NCBI GenBank assembly: GCA_030611265.1
Contig: JAUWQD010000015.1
Span: 1 to 54,535 of the forward strand
Origin: Methanosarcinaceae archaeon
Lineage (GTDB): Archaea; Halobacteriota; Methanosarcinia; Methanosarcinales; Methanosarcinaceae
Length of the DNA: 54,535 nt
Direction of reading: 5' to 3'
The notes beneath the pieces were generated by a model that saw only the letters and a list, made by a program, of their open reading frames with translations, ran no database searches and was not told the DNA's origin. Positions 16,002 to 37,306 of this stretch are shown piece by piece. Positions within the stretch are counted from its first letter, which is position 1, and each line of letters opens with the position of its first letter. The translations under genes and the position numbers were made by a program.

Positions 16002-16741
16002 TTGTTCAAAGTTCACATACCATCATGTACCATGTCCTGTCTTTCAACCCCCTGTCAGCTCCGAAACTGTTTTCACCCTCCTGTCAACGAGTATCCCCAT
16101 AAATGAATTATACAGCTCCTACGAAATCAGGTGATTTCTCCAAGGATCCTCTGATTGCAACATGTAGGTATTTTGCGGATAAGGGTTTCTTCCGCACGAT
16201 TTTGGAATTACTTCATAGGTTCTATTGCAATCTGGGCATGTGTATGTCATTTGTATCACGATTGGAGAAGTTAGGTTCTTTTAGGGTATTGGTAAGTTGA
16301 TTGTTTGAATAATGATTTGTTCGTATCTTTCATGATTCAACAATGCTTTAGTGTCGTGTCAACTTAAAAGTGTCGATTATGTGGTGCATAGATTAGTATT
16401 AAACGATTCCAAAATACAGTAATTTCAACAAATATATTAGACGCAGATTAATGCAAATTAATGCAGATACAACCTTAAATCAGCGTAAATCAGCGTAAAT
16501 CTGTGTGAATCTGCGTCTTAAAAAGAACTGGAAAATAGGACAGTGTCAAATCATATATTGGCGATATTGTATCATTGACATGACATTAGGATATATTCTC
16601 AAATATCGAATCCAATAATTTGATGGATATAACCAAATATAGATATACTCCGAGACACAATAATTCATTTGTAAAATATAATATAAATTCCGAAATTGAA
16701 AAAAAAAGATGCTAATTGCAGTTTAACATGGTGGAATAAAT
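16002..16741. other. Gene-poor region before the TrlF module
   Basis: These 740 bases hold one short frame at 16103-16300 (65 residues, with FADKGFFRTILELLHRFY) that I cannot place and that may be a gene remnant, and an inverted repeat at 16439-16518. The rest is AT-rich. The promoter of the TrlF gene must lie near the right end. Confidence 0.4.
16439..16518. repeat. Inverted repeat of the gcagatt/aatctgc family
   Basis: The ends agacgcagatt and aatctgcgtct are perfect complements, with internal near-repeats aatgcaaattaatgcagat and aaatcagcgtaaatcagcg. Related copies occur at about 4548-4590 (half) and 48301-48372. Such elements are common between genes in many archaea and bacteria and could form hairpins at the 3' ends of transcripts. 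Confidence 0.65.
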
Positions 16742-19396
16742 ATGAGATCAAATTTGGCAGAAAATACGGGTTTTCCAGACGGTTCCAAATTTATGAAGGC
16801 TGATTTGCATCTACACACCAAGGCAGATAAAGAGTTTAAGTGCGCCATATCAGATGACAACGATTTTGCAGAAAAATATGTCAATGAATTGAAGGAAAAG
16901 GGCATTAAAATTGGGGCAATAACAAATCACAATAAGTTTGAGCACGATGAATTCCAGTTGCTCAACACAATAGCCGTAGAAGAAGATATCTTCCTGCTTC
17001 CAGGAGTTGAACTTTCTGTCAAGGACGGAAAACGAGGAATACACACCCTCATTATATTTGCACCAGATGGTGCTGAAAATGATGACAGCGATACATCAAT
17101 GATAGAAACCTTTTTGACGTTCGCATTCGGAAGCAATCCACGTTTTGATAATACAGGGAATCCTGCTCATTGTAACTTAAACCTCGATGCCACAATTGAA
17201 AAACTGAATGAGCTAAAGTGCCATTATTTCATTATTCTTGCACATGCAAGCACTAACAATGGATTCTTTAAAGAACTTGAGGGCGGGAGAATAAAGGATT
17301 TCCTGAAAAGTGGCTATTTCAGAAAAAATATATTAGCATGCCAGAATATTGGAGAAAGTTCACGATCAACTTTTCTGAACAGCTGGGTAAAAGAGGTAGC
17401 AACAGAAATGGAACAGGATGAAATCAGTTTTATTCCGGCGTTCATTTCGGCATCTGACCCAAAAAAGATCGAAGAGGTTGGTACCAGATATTCTAATATC
17501 AAAATTGGTGAATATAGTTTTGATGCCGTTAAGTTTTCACTCATGAATCCTGAACTGCGCATCAGTGATGAAATCCCCCTGATAGATTATCCTTACATCA
17601 AAAGACTCTATGTCAAAACTGATAAAGCAATGTCTGAGATTGACATATGCCTCAACCCTGACATGAACAACCTAATAGGAATTCGCGGTTCTGGAAAATC
17701 AGCGTTCTTAGAAGCCATACGGTATGCACTAGAGCGTGATGCCGAAGTAGATAGTGATTATAAGAATAAGCTTATGGAATACGCAATTGGATCAGGTGGA
17801 AAAATAATTCTCGAAATAGTGGCATCCGGGCAGGAGTACCGTATCGAGAGAATTACAGGTGAAAGGCCAAAAATGTATAGGGATGACGAATATATCCCCG
17901 ACCTACATCCATCAGCTATGTTTCCTGTTGTATATTATGGGCAAAAGGACATTCAGGAATATTCTATGAACCCTGAACTGCAAATTGAGCTGATAGATCA
18001 ATTTATAGGGGAAAAAAGGCTTACGATACATGAGCAAATACAGGAAAAAGAAGACGAGCTCAAGGACATAATTAAAAAAAGTCATAATTTGAAGGAAAAA
18101 ATAAAGAAAACGGATGAATATAAGGCTAAAAAAGCATCCTTAAAAGATAAGATTACTGTTTTTGAAAAATTGCAAATCGCAGATAAACTACAAAAAGAAG
18201 GCAACTTCAAAAAAGACGAAGTGGCATTTGAAAAGCTTGCTGATTTTATCAAAACCTCAAAAGACGATATATCCTCATTCAAAGTAAATATCGAAAATAT
18301 TTTTTCACCCGTGTCTACCATTTCTTCAAAAGAGAATCCCGATCTATTTGCAGAACTTGAAAAACAACTGTTAACTTTAAAAGATACCTGGCTCAGGCAA
18401 ATTAATGAAATGGAAAAAGAAGGCACTGTTACATTCGTTGAACTTGAAAAATTGAAAGATAAGTTTGCCGAAGCTCGTGACAGTGTAGAAGAAGAAATTG
18501 CCAAGATCAAAAGGGAGATTAATATCTCTGAAGTATCCCCTGATGATTTCGGACGGCTTGTGAAGGAACTTGAACGGGTACAAGTAGCTATTTCCGAAAT
18601 CGAGAAATATGACCTGATTATACTGGAACTTGAAAAAACAAAGCAACGTTTGTATTCCGAACTACAAGGTCTATGGCATGAACAATGGTCAGAGCGGGAA
18701 CTAAAAAAAGAAGAGATTAACGCATCACAAACAGTCATACAACTTGGAATCTATTATAAAGGGAATAAAAAAAGCTACGCTGGGTTCATGAAAGAAATCT
18801 TTAGAGGAACTGGACTGCGAATAGATAAGCTTGACAAGCTTAGCAACAATTTCTCTGATAACATAGAACTATTTAATTCCTTAGAAAATATGAGTACTTT
18901 TCAGGACATCGGTTTTACAGATAATGAATGGATAAAATTTAAAGACCGATTTTTGGAGCAGGAAGATGTATTATGCCTCTATCGCGTGCCTGATTTAATT
19001 GAGATCCTATACGACGGCAAGCCCATCCGAAAATTATCACTAGGGCAGCGAGCTTCTTCTTTGCTGTTGCTTCTATTATCACAGAAAAATACACCTGTTA
19101 TAATGGATCAACCAGAAGATGATCTAGATAATCAGACCGTATATGAAGGATTGATCAAAAAAATTATTGAATTAAAAGGCAAACGTCAGATAATATTTGC
19201 CACACATAATTCGAATATACCTGTTCTTGGCGATTGTGAACAGGTAGTCGTATTCAATAATGAAGATGACAAAATAATAGCAGAATCCGGAAGTATTGAC
19301 AGGTCCTCTATTCAGAAAAACATAGTAGATATTATGGAAGGTGGAGAAGAGGCATTTACAAAACGTAAGGAGATTTATTATCAATGGATACTTTAG
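16742..19396 (+). CDS. TrlF-family PHP-domain SMC-like ATPase
   Basis: This 884-residue protein starts with a PHP metallo-phosphoesterase domain (about 18-280): ADLHLHTKA, AITNHNKF, LLPGVELS and a later FIILAHAS. An SMC/RecF-type ATPase follows: Walker A GIRGSGKSAFLEA (about 315), a long coiled coil (about 430-650), signature KLSLGQRASSLLLLLL, Walker B PVIMDQPEDDLDN and the switch FATHNSN. This layout is that of the TrlF-type PHP-ATPases, many of which lie in defence islands. The PHP domain could cleave nucleic acid or nucleotide when the ATPase senses foreign DNA; this is inference. GGTGG precedes ATG 16742. It overlaps the next gene by 13 bases. AT-rich base use sets the pair apart from its neighbours. 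Confidence 0.85.
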   Translation: MRSNLAENTGFPDGSKFMKADLHLHTKADKEFKCAISDDNDFAEKYVNELKEKGIKIGAITNHNKFEHDEFQLLNTIAVEEDIFLLPGVELSVKDGKRGIHTLIIFAPDGAENDDSDTSMIETFLTFAFGSNPRFDNTGNPAHCNLNLDATIEKLNELKCHYFIILAHASTNNGFFKELEGGRIKDFLKSGYFRKNILACQNIGESSRSTFLNSWVKEVATEMEQDEISFIPAFISASDPKKIEEVGTRYSNIKIGEYSFDAVKFSLMNPELRISDEIPLIDYPYIKRLYVKTDKAMSEIDICLNPDMNNLIGIRGSGKSAFLEAIRYALERDAEVDSDYKNKLMEYAIGSGGKIILEIVASGQEYRIERITGERPKMYRDDEYIPDLHPSAMFPVVYYGQKDIQEYSMNPELQIELIDQFIGEKRLTIHEQIQEKEDELKDIIKKSHNLKEKIKKTDEYKAKKASLKDKITVFEKLQIADKLQKEGNFKKDEVAFEKLADFIKTSKDDISSFKVNIENIFSPVSTISSKENPDLFAELEKQLLTLKDTWLRQINEMEKEGTVTFVELEKLKDKFAEARDSVEEEIAKIKREINISEVSPDDFGRLVKELERVQVAISEIEKYDLIILELEKTKQRLYSELQGLWHEQWSERELKKEEINASQTVIQLGIYYKGNKKSYAGFMKEIFRGTGLRIDKLDKLSNNFSDNIELFNSLENMSTFQDIGFTDNEWIKFKDRFLEQEDVLCLYRVPDLIEILYDGKPIRKLSLGQRASSLLLLLLSQKNTPVIMDQPEDDLDNQTVYEGLIKKIIELKGKRQIIFATHNSNIPVLGDCEQVVVFNNEDDKIIAESGSIDRSSIQKNIVDIMEGGEEAFTKRKEIYYQWIL

Positions 19397-20547
19397 AACT
19401 TTTAGAATTAATCGAAAAGGGTGAAGATTCACAGACCCAATTCAAAGAGATATTTGAGAGCATCGATGCATTAGCGTCTGAGATATGTGCCTTCAGTAAT
19501 TCAAATGGAGGGGATATTATAGTGGGAGTGTCCGATGATGGTGATATTACTGGACTCGAAAAAGACGAGATTCACAAATTAAATGAGTGGGTATCAAATA
19601 CATGCTCCCAGAAGATAGATCCGCAGGTCAATGTCACTACTCAAAATATAAAATATCTGGATAAAATTGTCATGGTGATTAGTGTTCCCATGGGGTCGAA
19701 CAAGTTCTACATGGCAAATGGCAAAGACATCTGGGTTAAAGTGGGATCAGATAAAAGACGAGCAAAAAGAGAGGAGATTCAGAGATTACTCCAGTCTTCC
19801 GGGCACCTTTATGCTGATGAGATGCCAGTTGAAAATACAAATTTAAGTGATTTTGATATTGATTTATTTAAGTATTTTTATGAACATAGGGTACACGAAA
19901 AACTTGAAAAACTGGACATTCCGCTTGAGAAAATTCTGTCTAATCTAAAATTGATGGCGGATGGAAAATTGACTCTCGCTGGTCTTCTTGCATTTGGTAA
20001 AAAACCGGAAGAAAAAAAGCCGCAGTTTGTGATAAAAGCAGTTCGATTCCCTGGAATTTCCCCTGCTGTGAGCGAATATGCAGACAGCCGAGACATCAGC
20101 GGCAACATAGCTAAAACATTTGAAGCTGGCAGATTGTTTTTGATTAACAATCTTCGATTGGTGCAGAAAGATCAACACTTTAACACAACAGGCATCCTTG
20201 AAATTCCAGAGATTGCCTTAGAAGAAGCTCTTGTTAATGCAATAGTACACCGAAATTATTTCATTTCCAGCAATATCCGAATATTTGTTTTTGACAACCG
20301 TGTCGAGATTATAAGTCCAGGAGCTTTACCCAATACTATCAATGTGGAATCTATAAAGTTAGGAATCCACATAGAGCGCAATCCAATATTAGTTTCCATG
20401 CTTAAAGATCTTGAAGACATACCCTACCGGGGGATCGGGACAGGCATTCAAAGAATCATGCATGAATGTAAAAACGCAGGGATAACTGTCGATTTTATTG
20501 AAGATAAGGAGAACGAACAGTTCAAAGTCATATTCCATCGAAATTGA
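19384..20547 (+). CDS. AlbA_2 (Schlafen-like) domain protein with C-terminal HATPase-like domain
   Basis: This 387-residue protein has an N-terminal AlbA_2 domain (EDSQTQFKEIF, EICAFSNSNGGDIIVGVSDDG, DIWVKVGSDKRRA) and a C-terminal GHKL-like domain (IALEEALVNAIVHRNYF, RVEIISPGALP, YRGIGTGIQRIM), the COG2865 architecture. Members are usually annotated as transcription regulators or helicase-related, without firm proof. The overlap with the TrlF gene means the two are made together, so I treat them as one two-gene system: ATPase-nuclease plus DNA- or RNA-binding regulator. Confidence 0.85.
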   Translation: MDTLELLELIEKGEDSQTQFKEIFESIDALASEICAFSNSNGGDIIVGVSDDGDITGLEKDEIHKLNEWVSNTCSQKIDPQVNVTTQNIKYLDKIVMVISVPMGSNKFYMANGKDIWVKVGSDKRRAKREEIQRLLQSSGHLYADEMPVENTNLSDFDIDLFKYFYEHRVHEKLEKLDIPLEKILSNLKLMADGKLTLAGLLAFGKKPEEKKPQFVIKAVRFPGISPAVSEYADSRDISGNIAKTFEAGRLFLINNLRLVQKDQHFNTTGILEIPEIALEEALVNAIVHRNYFISSNIRIFVFDNRVEIISPGALPNTINVESIKLGIHIERNPILVSMLKDLEDIPYRGIGTGIQRIMHECKNAGITVDFIEDKENEQFKVIFHRN

Positions 20548-20800
20548 CTACATTTTTTTAAAATCTACAATAAATGCTAAATATTTTGTAAATTATGATG
20601 AAATCGAGGAATGTGATTTGGAGAAATAATTGAAAAAAATGAATATTTATATTAACTAATTAGTGCCCACCTCAAATCTAAAACTCCCTCACAAATATCT
20701 TTTTGGAATATTTATATATTGCAACAATTCTATACAACATCGAATCAATCACCACTTATGATCGATTTGTATTATATTATACACATAAACAACGATAAAT

Positions 20801-35399: not shown

Positions 35400-36803
35400 A
35401 TGAAAATTAAAATTGAAAATTTTGGACCTATTGACGAATGTGAAATTGAAACAAAACCTCTTACAATATTTGTAGGTCCGAATGGTACTGGTAAAACTTG
35501 GACTGCTACGTTGATAGCATGTCTGTTTCATCCAAATATGTGGAATCATTATTCGCGTGCATATTCAGAAGGTGAACTAACTGAACGTTATGATCTTATC
35601 GAAGGTGCTATCCAAAGTGTATTAGTTAATGGAAATGCAAAAATTGACATGAACAGTTTCATTGAAAAATATGCCAATGAATATTTCTCGAATATTGCTC
35701 GTCTTATGCCAAAATACATGCCGGAATTTTTAGGCAGTCAGTTGATTTCATTCGACGATTTAAATATAAATGTTGAGTTTAAACGCGAAAATCATTTATC
35801 ATATATTAATAAATTCTCTGCTGATAGGACAATAGGCGAAAATGAAGATGGGGAAGCACTTTTAAAAGTGTATGCCCAAAAGAATGATCCTTATGTATAT
35901 GTGTTTACCAGATCAAGTAAAGAAATACAGGACATGCCCCGAAGCCTCATTAGTCATAATATTTCTTCTTTTATTTTCATGATCATTAATCGGATGTATT
36001 ATGATATTACTTATTTTTTCCCCGCTGAAAGGACAGGTGTTATGCAATTATTCTCTGGAGTTCAAGTTAATAGAGAAGAGAATGTGCTGCCAAAAGATGG
36101 ACCATCTGATGACAAGAACAACACACATAGTTCATCTTTATCATTAGTTAGTTTGATCTCTACTATCACGAGCGCTTTTGATTCCAAAAATCAGATTCAC
36201 CGTAAAGAATTAGCAAAGAAGAATTCTAAGATCAAGAGATATATGGAATTAGCTAATATATTAGAGAATGATATTCTTCTTGGTGGAGTTGAAACGGTTG
36301 AAAAACCAGATAAATCTGTAGAAATTGTATTTAAACTTAAAAATGATACAAATGTTTTTGACATTTCACCCGTTTCATCAGGTATAAAAGATTTAATTCC
36401 ACTAGTGCTTTATCTAAGATATGCGGCAGAGGAAAGAGATTTAGTTGTGATAGATGAACCTGAAATGAATTTGCATCCTGAAGCTCAAATCAAAATTATG
36501 GAACTTTTGGCTATGATGGTAAATTCTGGTCTGAATGTAATTGCAACCACACACAGTCCTTATTTAGTAGACCACATTTCAAATTTAACCAAAGCGTATG
36601 AACTCAAAAATGCCGGAAAGAATAATTTAGAAGAGAAGTTTAAATTGAAGAATGATTTATGTTTCATAGGTTCTGACAAAGTATCAACATATCTTTTCGA
36701 CAACAATTCTGTGAAAGATATACTTGATGAAGATGGTTTGGTAAACTGGGATACATTTGGCAATATATCCGAATATGTATCTAATCTCTATTATGACTTG
36801 TAG
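35400..36803 (+). CDS. AAA (OLD/RecF-like) ATPase of a two-gene module
   Basis: This 467-residue protein has Walker A GPNGTGKTW (about residue 26), a middle helical region, the signature-like SPVSSGIKDLIPLVL, Walker B LVVIDEPEMNLHPEAQ and the switch ATTHSPYLVDH. It is of the AAA_15/AAA_21 type used in many anti-phage systems (Gabija, Septu, retron ATPases). The DNA is clearly AT-rich against the CYTH and antiporter genes at its sides. A small PD-(D/E)xK-like gene follows within ten bases. Confidence 0.88.
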   Translation: MKIKIENFGPIDECEIETKPLTIFVGPNGTGKTWTATLIACLFHPNMWNHYSRAYSEGELTERYDLIEGAIQSVLVNGNAKIDMNSFIEKYANEYFSNIARLMPKYMPEFLGSQLISFDDLNINVEFKRENHLSYINKFSADRTIGENEDGEALLKVYAQKNDPYVYVFTRSSKEIQDMPRSLISHNISSFIFMIINRMYYDITYFFPAERTGVMQLFSGVQVNREENVLPKDGPSDDKNNTHSSSLSLVSLISTITSAFDSKNQIHRKELAKKNSKIKRYMELANILENDILLGGVETVEKPDKSVEIVFKLKNDTNVFDISPVSSGIKDLIPLVLYLRYAAEERDLVVIDEPEMNLHPEAQIKIMELLAMMVNSGLNVIATTHSPYLVDHISNLTKAYELKNAGKNNLEEKFKLKNDLCFIGSDKVSTYLFDNNSVKDILDEDGLVNWDTFGNISEYVSNLYYDL

Positions 36804-36811
36804 GTGATTTG

Positions 36812-37306
36812 ATGCCATTTAACCTTTTACTCGCAAATTGCCTTCATCATGGCACAAGTTATAATGAAAGTGGAGTGAACGTATCAATAAAACCAAACAG
36901 TGATGAAACATTTCTTTTTTTCAACACTGATTCCGATAAAAATAAGCAACAATTCAATAAGTATATGGGGATTTCTGATACAGGAGAAACAATTTGTGAT
37001 TTGTTAATTTATCACTTGAACCATGCGTCAAATGAACCGAAAAAGGCAATTTGTTTAGTTGAATTAAAGGGAACAGACACTCATCATGCTGTTCAACAAT
37101 TATTGAATACTTATGAAATGTTCAATACAAATTTTAGAAAGGGTGGACTATTTCAGGATGCTAAGTGGGGAGCTTTTATTATGACTCACAAAAGAAGTTC
37201 TGTTGTGAAAAATACAAAACCATTGATGAAACAACTCTCTGATAAAGGATTAAAACCCTATATAGCCAAAAAAGGCTTCGATACTTTCATACGTGGTTTA
37301 GTATAA
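36812..37306 (+). CDS. Predicted small nuclease partner of the AAA ATPase
   Basis: This 164-residue protein contains ETICDLLIYHLN and then AICLVELKGTDTHHAVQQL, a D...ELK arrangement typical of PD-(D/E)xK nucleases, with the helix that follows. I cannot name its family. ATG 36812 lies just after the ATPase stop. ATPase-sensor plus nuclease-effector pairs are the commonest form of short anti-phage systems, so a defence role is the best guess. Confidence 0.6.
   Translation: MPFNLLLANCLHHGTSYNESGVNVSIKPNSDETFLFFNTDSDKNKQQFNKYMGISDTGETICDLLIYHLNHASNEPKKAICLVELKGTDTHHAVQQLLNTYEMFNTNFRKGGLFQDAKWGAFIMTHKRSSVVKNTKPLMKQLSDKGLKPYIAKKGFDTFIRGLV

Follow-up and report, generated by a model that had tools for sequence, protein, structure and literature searches.

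In a 54,535-nt stretch of DNA from a Methanosarcinaceae archaeon (assembly GCA_030611265.1, contig JAUWQD010000015.1, positions 1 to 54,535; here called the window), two overlapping genes encode TrlF, in which a PHP domain precedes an SMC/ABC-type ATPase, and TrlG, which joins an AlbA_2 domain to a GHKL-like domain. We propose that archaeal TrlF-TrlG is a mobile two-gene cassette that forms a second layer of defense linked to restriction-modification (RM) and bacteriophage exclusion (BREX) systems, with the PHP nuclease as its effector; taken as a whole, we give this statement about an even chance (roughly 0.5) of being correct. That TrlFG serves in defense is highly probable, and the exact division of labor proposed below for the two proteins is tentative. 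Neither the protein families nor the pair is new, and a phenotype is on record as well; TrlF and TrlG received their names in bacteria. What is new here is the recurrent embedding of the pair in type I RM, type III RM, and BREX operons, seen with a matched control, together with an archaeal trlFG cassette that has an empty site and two lineages that differ in their active sites.

The archaeal pair and its bacterial counterpart

The trlF gene (16742..19396, plus strand; 884 aa) and the trlG gene (19384..20547, plus strand; 387 aa) share 13 nt (19384..19396, plus strand), which hold the stop of trlF and the start of trlG. TrlF matches the profile NF045780 with 516.6 bits over residues 14 to 879, against a curated cutoff of 350, and is thus a member of that family; its Pfam matches are SMC_N, AAA_21, and, weakly, PHP. 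In the adjacent TrlG, Pfam places SLFN_AlbA_2 at residues 14 to 127 (E = 1.1e-22) and HATPase_c_4 at residues 296 to 384 (E = 2.9e-16), and AlphaFold models are consistent with the assignment of both proteins. An earlier, sequence-only reading had described overlapping open reading frames (ORFs) at exactly these coordinates, had called them a PHP-SMC ATPase and an AlbA_2 protein with a GHKL-like end, and had noted that they are AT rich. All of this holds: both ORFs are intact, and the G+C content of the trlFG stretch is ~34 to 39%, versus ~40 to 48% in most neighboring kilobases.

The same reading knew of no described archaeal system with this pair, and we considered the possibility that the pair is undescribed; it was rejected, given that PMC7554251 describes TrlF-TrlG in bacteria as part of the “temperature restriction locus” (TRL; trlR-trlF-trlG) of Photorhabdus laumondii and its relatives. 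We equate the two pairs because they have the same domains, because TrlF and TrlG are linked in both, and because of their sequence identity. In that paper, trlF is tightly linked to trlG, and Photorhabdus TrlG carries AlbA_2 at residues 14 to 128 and HATPase_c_4 at residues 298 to 365, positions nearly equal to those in the window protein. The gene order is likewise the same, the genes overlap, and the window TrlF and TrlG are 33% and 39% identical to the Photorhabdus caribbeanensis pair. The window pair differs in its archaeal host, in the length of the overlap (13 nt here versus 22 nt), and in having no trlR-type regulator; the next gene upstream, at a distance of 740 bp, encodes an RNase_H_2 protein. 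According to PMC7554251, all three of trlR, trlF, and trlG are found in synteny only rarely, and trlR belongs to the Photorhabdus operon rather than to the pair.

The phenotype also comes from PMC7554251, in which the Photorhabdus locus is induced by a temperature upshift and growth arrest is temperature dependent. Most suppressors of the arrest at 36°C are TrlG substitutions and none lies in trlF, and the genetics as reported say that TrlG is needed for growth arrest. The sequence-only reading had cast the AlbA_2 protein as a nucleic-acid-binding partner; because the growth-arrest mutations reported there fell in trlG, TrlG is more than a binding accessory. Phage defense is not proposed for TRL in the available text of that paper.

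Pairing of the two genes and their restriction neighbors

A scan of 84,980 species genomes yielded at least 576 TrlF relatives. Locus counts were made on the best 80 of these, a set biased toward relatives of the window TrlF. TrlG stands directly downstream of TrlF in 65 of these 80 loci, drawn from many phyla, a positive outcome for the test of co-occurrence within 100 bp that the sequence-only reading had proposed; 4 of the 15 loci in which no TrlG was seen have too little downstream DNA. Of the 65 pairs, 62 have overlapping genes, the usual overlap being 13, 19, or 22 nt. This arrangement is far beyond chance. The protein distances of TrlF and TrlG are correlated (r = 0.87; highest of 1,000 shuffles, 0.22), a sign of joint evolution to which shared ancestry contributes. 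When TrlG presence is mapped onto a 91-protein TrlF tree, only 4 changes are needed, versus 13.2 for shuffled labels. The window TrlF groups on this tree with its own genus and with a Methanoperedenaceae metagenome-assembled genome (MAG); beyond those, long branches join the group to one deltaproteobacterial and one clostridial MAG. Seen from TrlG, the association is less tight. On plasmids, an adjacent TrlF or histidinol-phosphatase annotation accompanies TrlG in 32 of 40 rows among the matches listed.

The neighborhood of the pair was examined by clustering the ORFs next to TrlF, with no families chosen beforehand. The commonest neighbors include the methylase and restriction enzyme of type III systems and the R, M, and S subunits of type I systems; BrxHI, HmaB, PglX, PrrC, and methylases of type II systems are further recurrent neighbors. 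Whole gene orders recur as well: mod-TrlF-TrlG-res (type III), PglX-TrlF-TrlG-BrxHI (BREX), and, for type I, hsdR-TrlF-TrlG-hsdS-PrrC-hsdM and hsdM-hsdS-TrlF-TrlG-hsdR. An RM/BREX gene is the first or second same-strand neighbor in 32 of the 80 loci and lies within 5 kb in 40. With recA loci (up to 20 kb, 20 genomes) as the control, RM/BREX genes flank 12/20 TrlF loci and 0/20 recA loci of the same genomes (Fisher p = 4.5e-5), a test that leans toward this result because the RM/BREX seeds came from TrlF neighborhoods. The enrichment near defense genes that the sequence-only reading had proposed as a test is borne out for RM/BREX genes, and embedding in RM/BREX operons is a property of the TrlF family as a whole. 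Based on the placement of trlFG inside such operons, we suggest that it acts as a second layer.

The same operons are compatible with a closely related model, in which TrlFG guards restriction systems in the manner of PrrC or PARIS and stays silent while RM or BREX works. Inhibition of an RM enzyme by a phage would then lead to abortive growth arrest, with TrlG (or an RNase activity) as the toxic component and TrlF as the sensor. Guards of RM systems are an established class (PMC12707154). Like them, trlFG is an accessory element embedded in RM (and BREX) operons, those of type I included, often beside PrrC, with PrrC-like genes adjoining it at several loci; the clustering of growth-arrest suppressors in trlG, as given in PMC7554251, also fits. 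Unlike PrrC, an anticodon nuclease of a different type, TrlFG is also found in type III RM and BREX operons and alone, and RM neighbors are missing at many loci, that of the window among them. We regard a guard function as the closest rival to a second layer that acts through the PHP nuclease and, together with the active-site evidence given below, as rather unlikely.

BREX loci contain other proteins that resemble TrlG. Schlafen proteins with a histidine-kinase-like part were catalogued in 2026 as BREX auxiliary effectors (PMC12839542). Those with a minimal histidine kinase combine, in the same order as TrlG, an AlbA_2/Schlafen domain with a GHKL-like one and lie within BREX loci, whereas the C-terminal winged helix-turn-helix described there has no sign of a counterpart in the 387-aa window TrlG. 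PHP is unmentioned in the main text of that paper, and a 2020 classification of ABC ATPases that it cites may already describe a PHP-ABC/Schlafen pair. No model of the TrlF-TrlG pair was found in the defense database PADLOC 2.0.

Plasmids are frequent carriers. On Escherichia coli IncC plasmids the type I version of trlFG adjoins a TnsD-type transposition gene, RM/BREX-trlFG operons are also found on Vibrio plasmids, and trlFG is present on many conjugative plasmids, including those of E. coli and Klebsiella. A plain query with the window sequence found no relative on viral contigs; an alignment query found 21 TrlF relatives on them, only one with TrlG, and phage records contain few TrlF relatives. 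This distribution bears on the idea that TrlFG regulates growth in response to a stress such as temperature, with no tie to viruses. The upshift induction and the temperature-dependent arrest in Photorhabdus, as reported in PMC7554251, are what such a regulator would produce. A patchy and mobile distribution, association with RM/BREX operons, carriage by many conjugative plasmids, and a window pair with no trlR-like regulator gene upstream all argue in the other direction, and we judge a pure stress regulator to be very unlikely and a defense role to be the better account of TrlFG.

TrlF is also seen without TrlG, as in Vibrio tubiashii, where it lies downstream of brxL. As separate observations, another genome of the window's family (G026, locus L033, 1963-12844) has a type I RM operon that contains a divergent PHP-SMC protein lacking TrlG. 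On a Halapricum desulfuricans plasmid (L350, 2038-12529), a haloarchaeal TrlF, likewise lacking TrlG, has a DUF1156 protein on one side and DUF262/DUF499 genes on the other, a context that looks like BREX-related defense.

Several points weigh against our proposal. The window copy is flanked by RNase_H_2 and peptidase U32 genes and not by an RM or BREX operon, and no defense gene adjoins it. Whole TrlF clades on the tree of 91 are without TrlG, and a TrlG-like protein without a TrlF match is encoded in at least eight archaeal genomes; thus, neither protein strictly needs the other. The recA comparison leans in our favor, as stated above. TrlF as the sole effector is disfavored because the growth arrest, as reported in PMC7554251, is linked to changes in trlG and to none in trlF. 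Finally, no protection experiment for the trlFG pair was found in the searchable literature.

Active sites and a tentative division of labor

The PHP domain of TrlF (residues ~18 to 240; 16793..17461, plus strand) contains the ligands D21, H23, H25, D29, H63, E90, H101, H168, and D239, which show zero substitutions wherever they are covered among 91 TrlF sequences. In the same set, G313, G316, G318, K319, and S320 of the Walker A motif GIRGSGKS (residues 313 to 320; 17678..17701, plus strand) are invariant, as are the ABC signature SLGQR (766 to 770) and the Walker B motif DQPEDD (789 to 794), which together span 19037..19123 (plus strand), and the residues of the Q-loop and H-loop. PHP ligands and ABC ATPase motifs alike are therefore kept in the window protein and its relatives. 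The AlphaFold model of TrlF (pLDDT 84) matches the heads of SMC, Rad50, and RecF; a sequence search of the PDB with TrlF gave no match. TM-scores for the TrlF and TrlG models are low because domains, not whole chains, superpose.

Given that the nearest PDB folds of the predicted TrlF structure are those of SMC, Rad50, and RecF heads and that some records carry a Gene Ontology term for double-strand break repair, could TrlFG be a DNA-repair or end-processing pair that guards its carrier from breaks, including those made by neighboring restriction enzymes? The pair has a patchy, mobile distribution, its site being empty in one sister genome, and the phenotype in PMC7554251 is growth arrest, not survival; we hold this alternative to be most improbable and retain the reading of TrlFG as a defense cassette.

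TrlG presents a different picture. In Schlafens, the acids of the E..(E)FK motif of AlbA_2 are catalytic. The corresponding motif in TrlG, GEDSQTQFK (residues 13 to 21; 19420..19446, plus strand), keeps E14 and has Q19 in place of the second Glu, so that one of the two acids of an active Schlafen-type RNase is missing; E14, Q19, and K21 are invariant in 69/69 full-length homologues. The HATPase_c_4 (GHKL-like) domain (20269..20535, plus strand; Pfam 296 to 384) follows directly on an N-box whose residues, E281 and N285, are invariant among homologues. The AlphaFold model of TrlG (pLDDT 89) matches Corynebacterium DIP2311 (PDB 3lmm) along the whole chain, its best structural match, and the N-terminal part matches Schlafen and SAMD9 domains. 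Unlike TrlG, DIP2311 has no link to TrlF that we could see; the two are ~20% identical, and the title of the PDB entry does not give a function. As a separate observation, close TrlG-like proteins, mostly with GEDSxxQFK, occur in other archaea of the phylum without a TrlF match (L254 to L260).

For the guard model, then, the predicted fold of TrlG, with its match to Schlafen and SAMD9 RNase domains, is favorable, and the Gln at the second Schlafen acid in 69/69 homologues and the retention of the PHP residues, as if they were catalytic, are unfavorable. For an effector in TrlF, the nearest precedent is Ppl, an antiphage PHP 3'-5' exonuclease of single-stranded DNA that nucleotides restrain and 3'-OH ends activate (PMC12904381). 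Like TrlF, Ppl has a PHP domain and then an SMC/ABC-like ATPase, and profile matches of Ppl to the window TrlF are significant. Membership in Ppl (NF042955) was considered and rejected, as TrlF scores 199.1 bits against a curated cutoff of 1000 and is related only; Ppl is also a single gene, whereas TrlF has a TrlG partner.

By analogy with Ppl (PMC12904381), we posit that the SMC-like head of TrlF would detect DNA ends or structures and that its PHP domain would do the cutting. In this model, TrlF would be a Rad50/SMC-like ATPase that recognizes abnormal DNA, namely, ends or structures arising from the clash of phage and restriction, and its metal-dependent PHP domain would be the nuclease effector. 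TrlG would bind nucleic acid via AlbA_2 and ATP via its GHKL-like domain, and it would license or trigger the response, leading to nucleic-acid degradation and growth arrest. The second layer would thereby come into play on the products of restriction or when restriction has failed. The antiviral role, the trigger, the identity of the cutting subunit, and mutual binding of TrlF and TrlG are parts of the model that we infer. The PHP effector and ATPase sensor of the sequence-only reading fit both the conserved residues and Ppl and may be apt, and we offer the precise assignment of tasks to TrlF and TrlG with reserve.

A second TrlFG lineage complicates this assignment. It is found in archaea of a family that we take to be ANME-1-like, on a Citrobacter IncC plasmid, and on Vibrio parahaemolyticus plasmids (loci L261, 1531-5517; L270, 4302-8215; and L271, 3914-7827); type I RM and BREX operons enclose the bacterial copies. 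Its TrlF is divergent, with A or V, Q, and N replacing the D, H, and H ligands of PHP (the D-x-H-x-H site reads CALQVNP), and its TrlG keeps the full E..EFK Schlafen motif. An intact PHP domain beside a Gln-bearing TrlG in one lineage and a lost PHP domain beside an intact E..EFK in the other imply that the effector may have moved between subunits. Strict reciprocity of the two active sites is weakened by PHP-degenerate TrlF proteins that occur without TrlG on other plasmids and by locus L043, in which an intact PHP domain accompanies an EFK-type partner fragment; few independent contrasts thus underlie the pattern of a subunit swap. Enterobacteriaceae genomes were searched for PHP-degenerate TrlF and gave none, a result that carries no weight because there was no positive control. 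We therefore regard as speculative, and on balance unlikely, the broader view that TrlFG is a portable second layer that type I RM, type III RM, and BREX systems have each recruited on their own, with cutting having moved between its subunits.

Mobility of the cassette and its significance

The window cassette is solitary, with housekeeping genes on both sides. The host genome has a second trlFG copy on another contig (80% identical in TrlF and 85% in TrlG), and two sister genomes carry one copy each, that of G004 adjoining PglX. The DNA common to copies elsewhere (G001, G000 C70, and G004 C21) corresponds to 16693..20563 (plus strand): similarity ends at 20562 to 20564, within 1 bp of 20563, in all three comparisons and starts at 16589 to 16719, which marks a cassette. 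In relatives, the region 16021..20684 is replaced. The flanking genes are ~397 bp apart in G002, a nearly empty site, and G005 has a HepT-like (HEPN)/MNT toxin-antitoxin pair there (L188, 1643-2489), with homologous DNA in G004 (L189). Based on this toxin-antitoxin pair, the site seems to exchange defense-type cassettes.

The sequence-only reading had the genes flanked by repeats. An imperfect palindromic repeat does lie upstream of trlF (16436-16525); it is a member of a repeat family scattered over the host genome (24 matches), and no long direct or inverted repeat pair flanking the window cassette was found. Flanking repeats were accordingly rejected as signals of mobility. Elsewhere in the window, an AT-rich stretch encodes an OLD-family ATPase like PD-T4-4_A/AriA (35400-36803) with a 165-aa ORF close behind (36809-37306); together (35400-37306), these are a possible separate two-gene defense system.

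A general backup to restriction is a role for which this mobile pair, recurrent in three kinds of restriction operons in bacteria and archaea alike, is a strong candidate. Its carriage on plasmids of E. coli and Klebsiella makes a laboratory test easy. If trlFG is indeed a defense system, the temperature phenotype of Photorhabdus could be autoimmunity arising from it.

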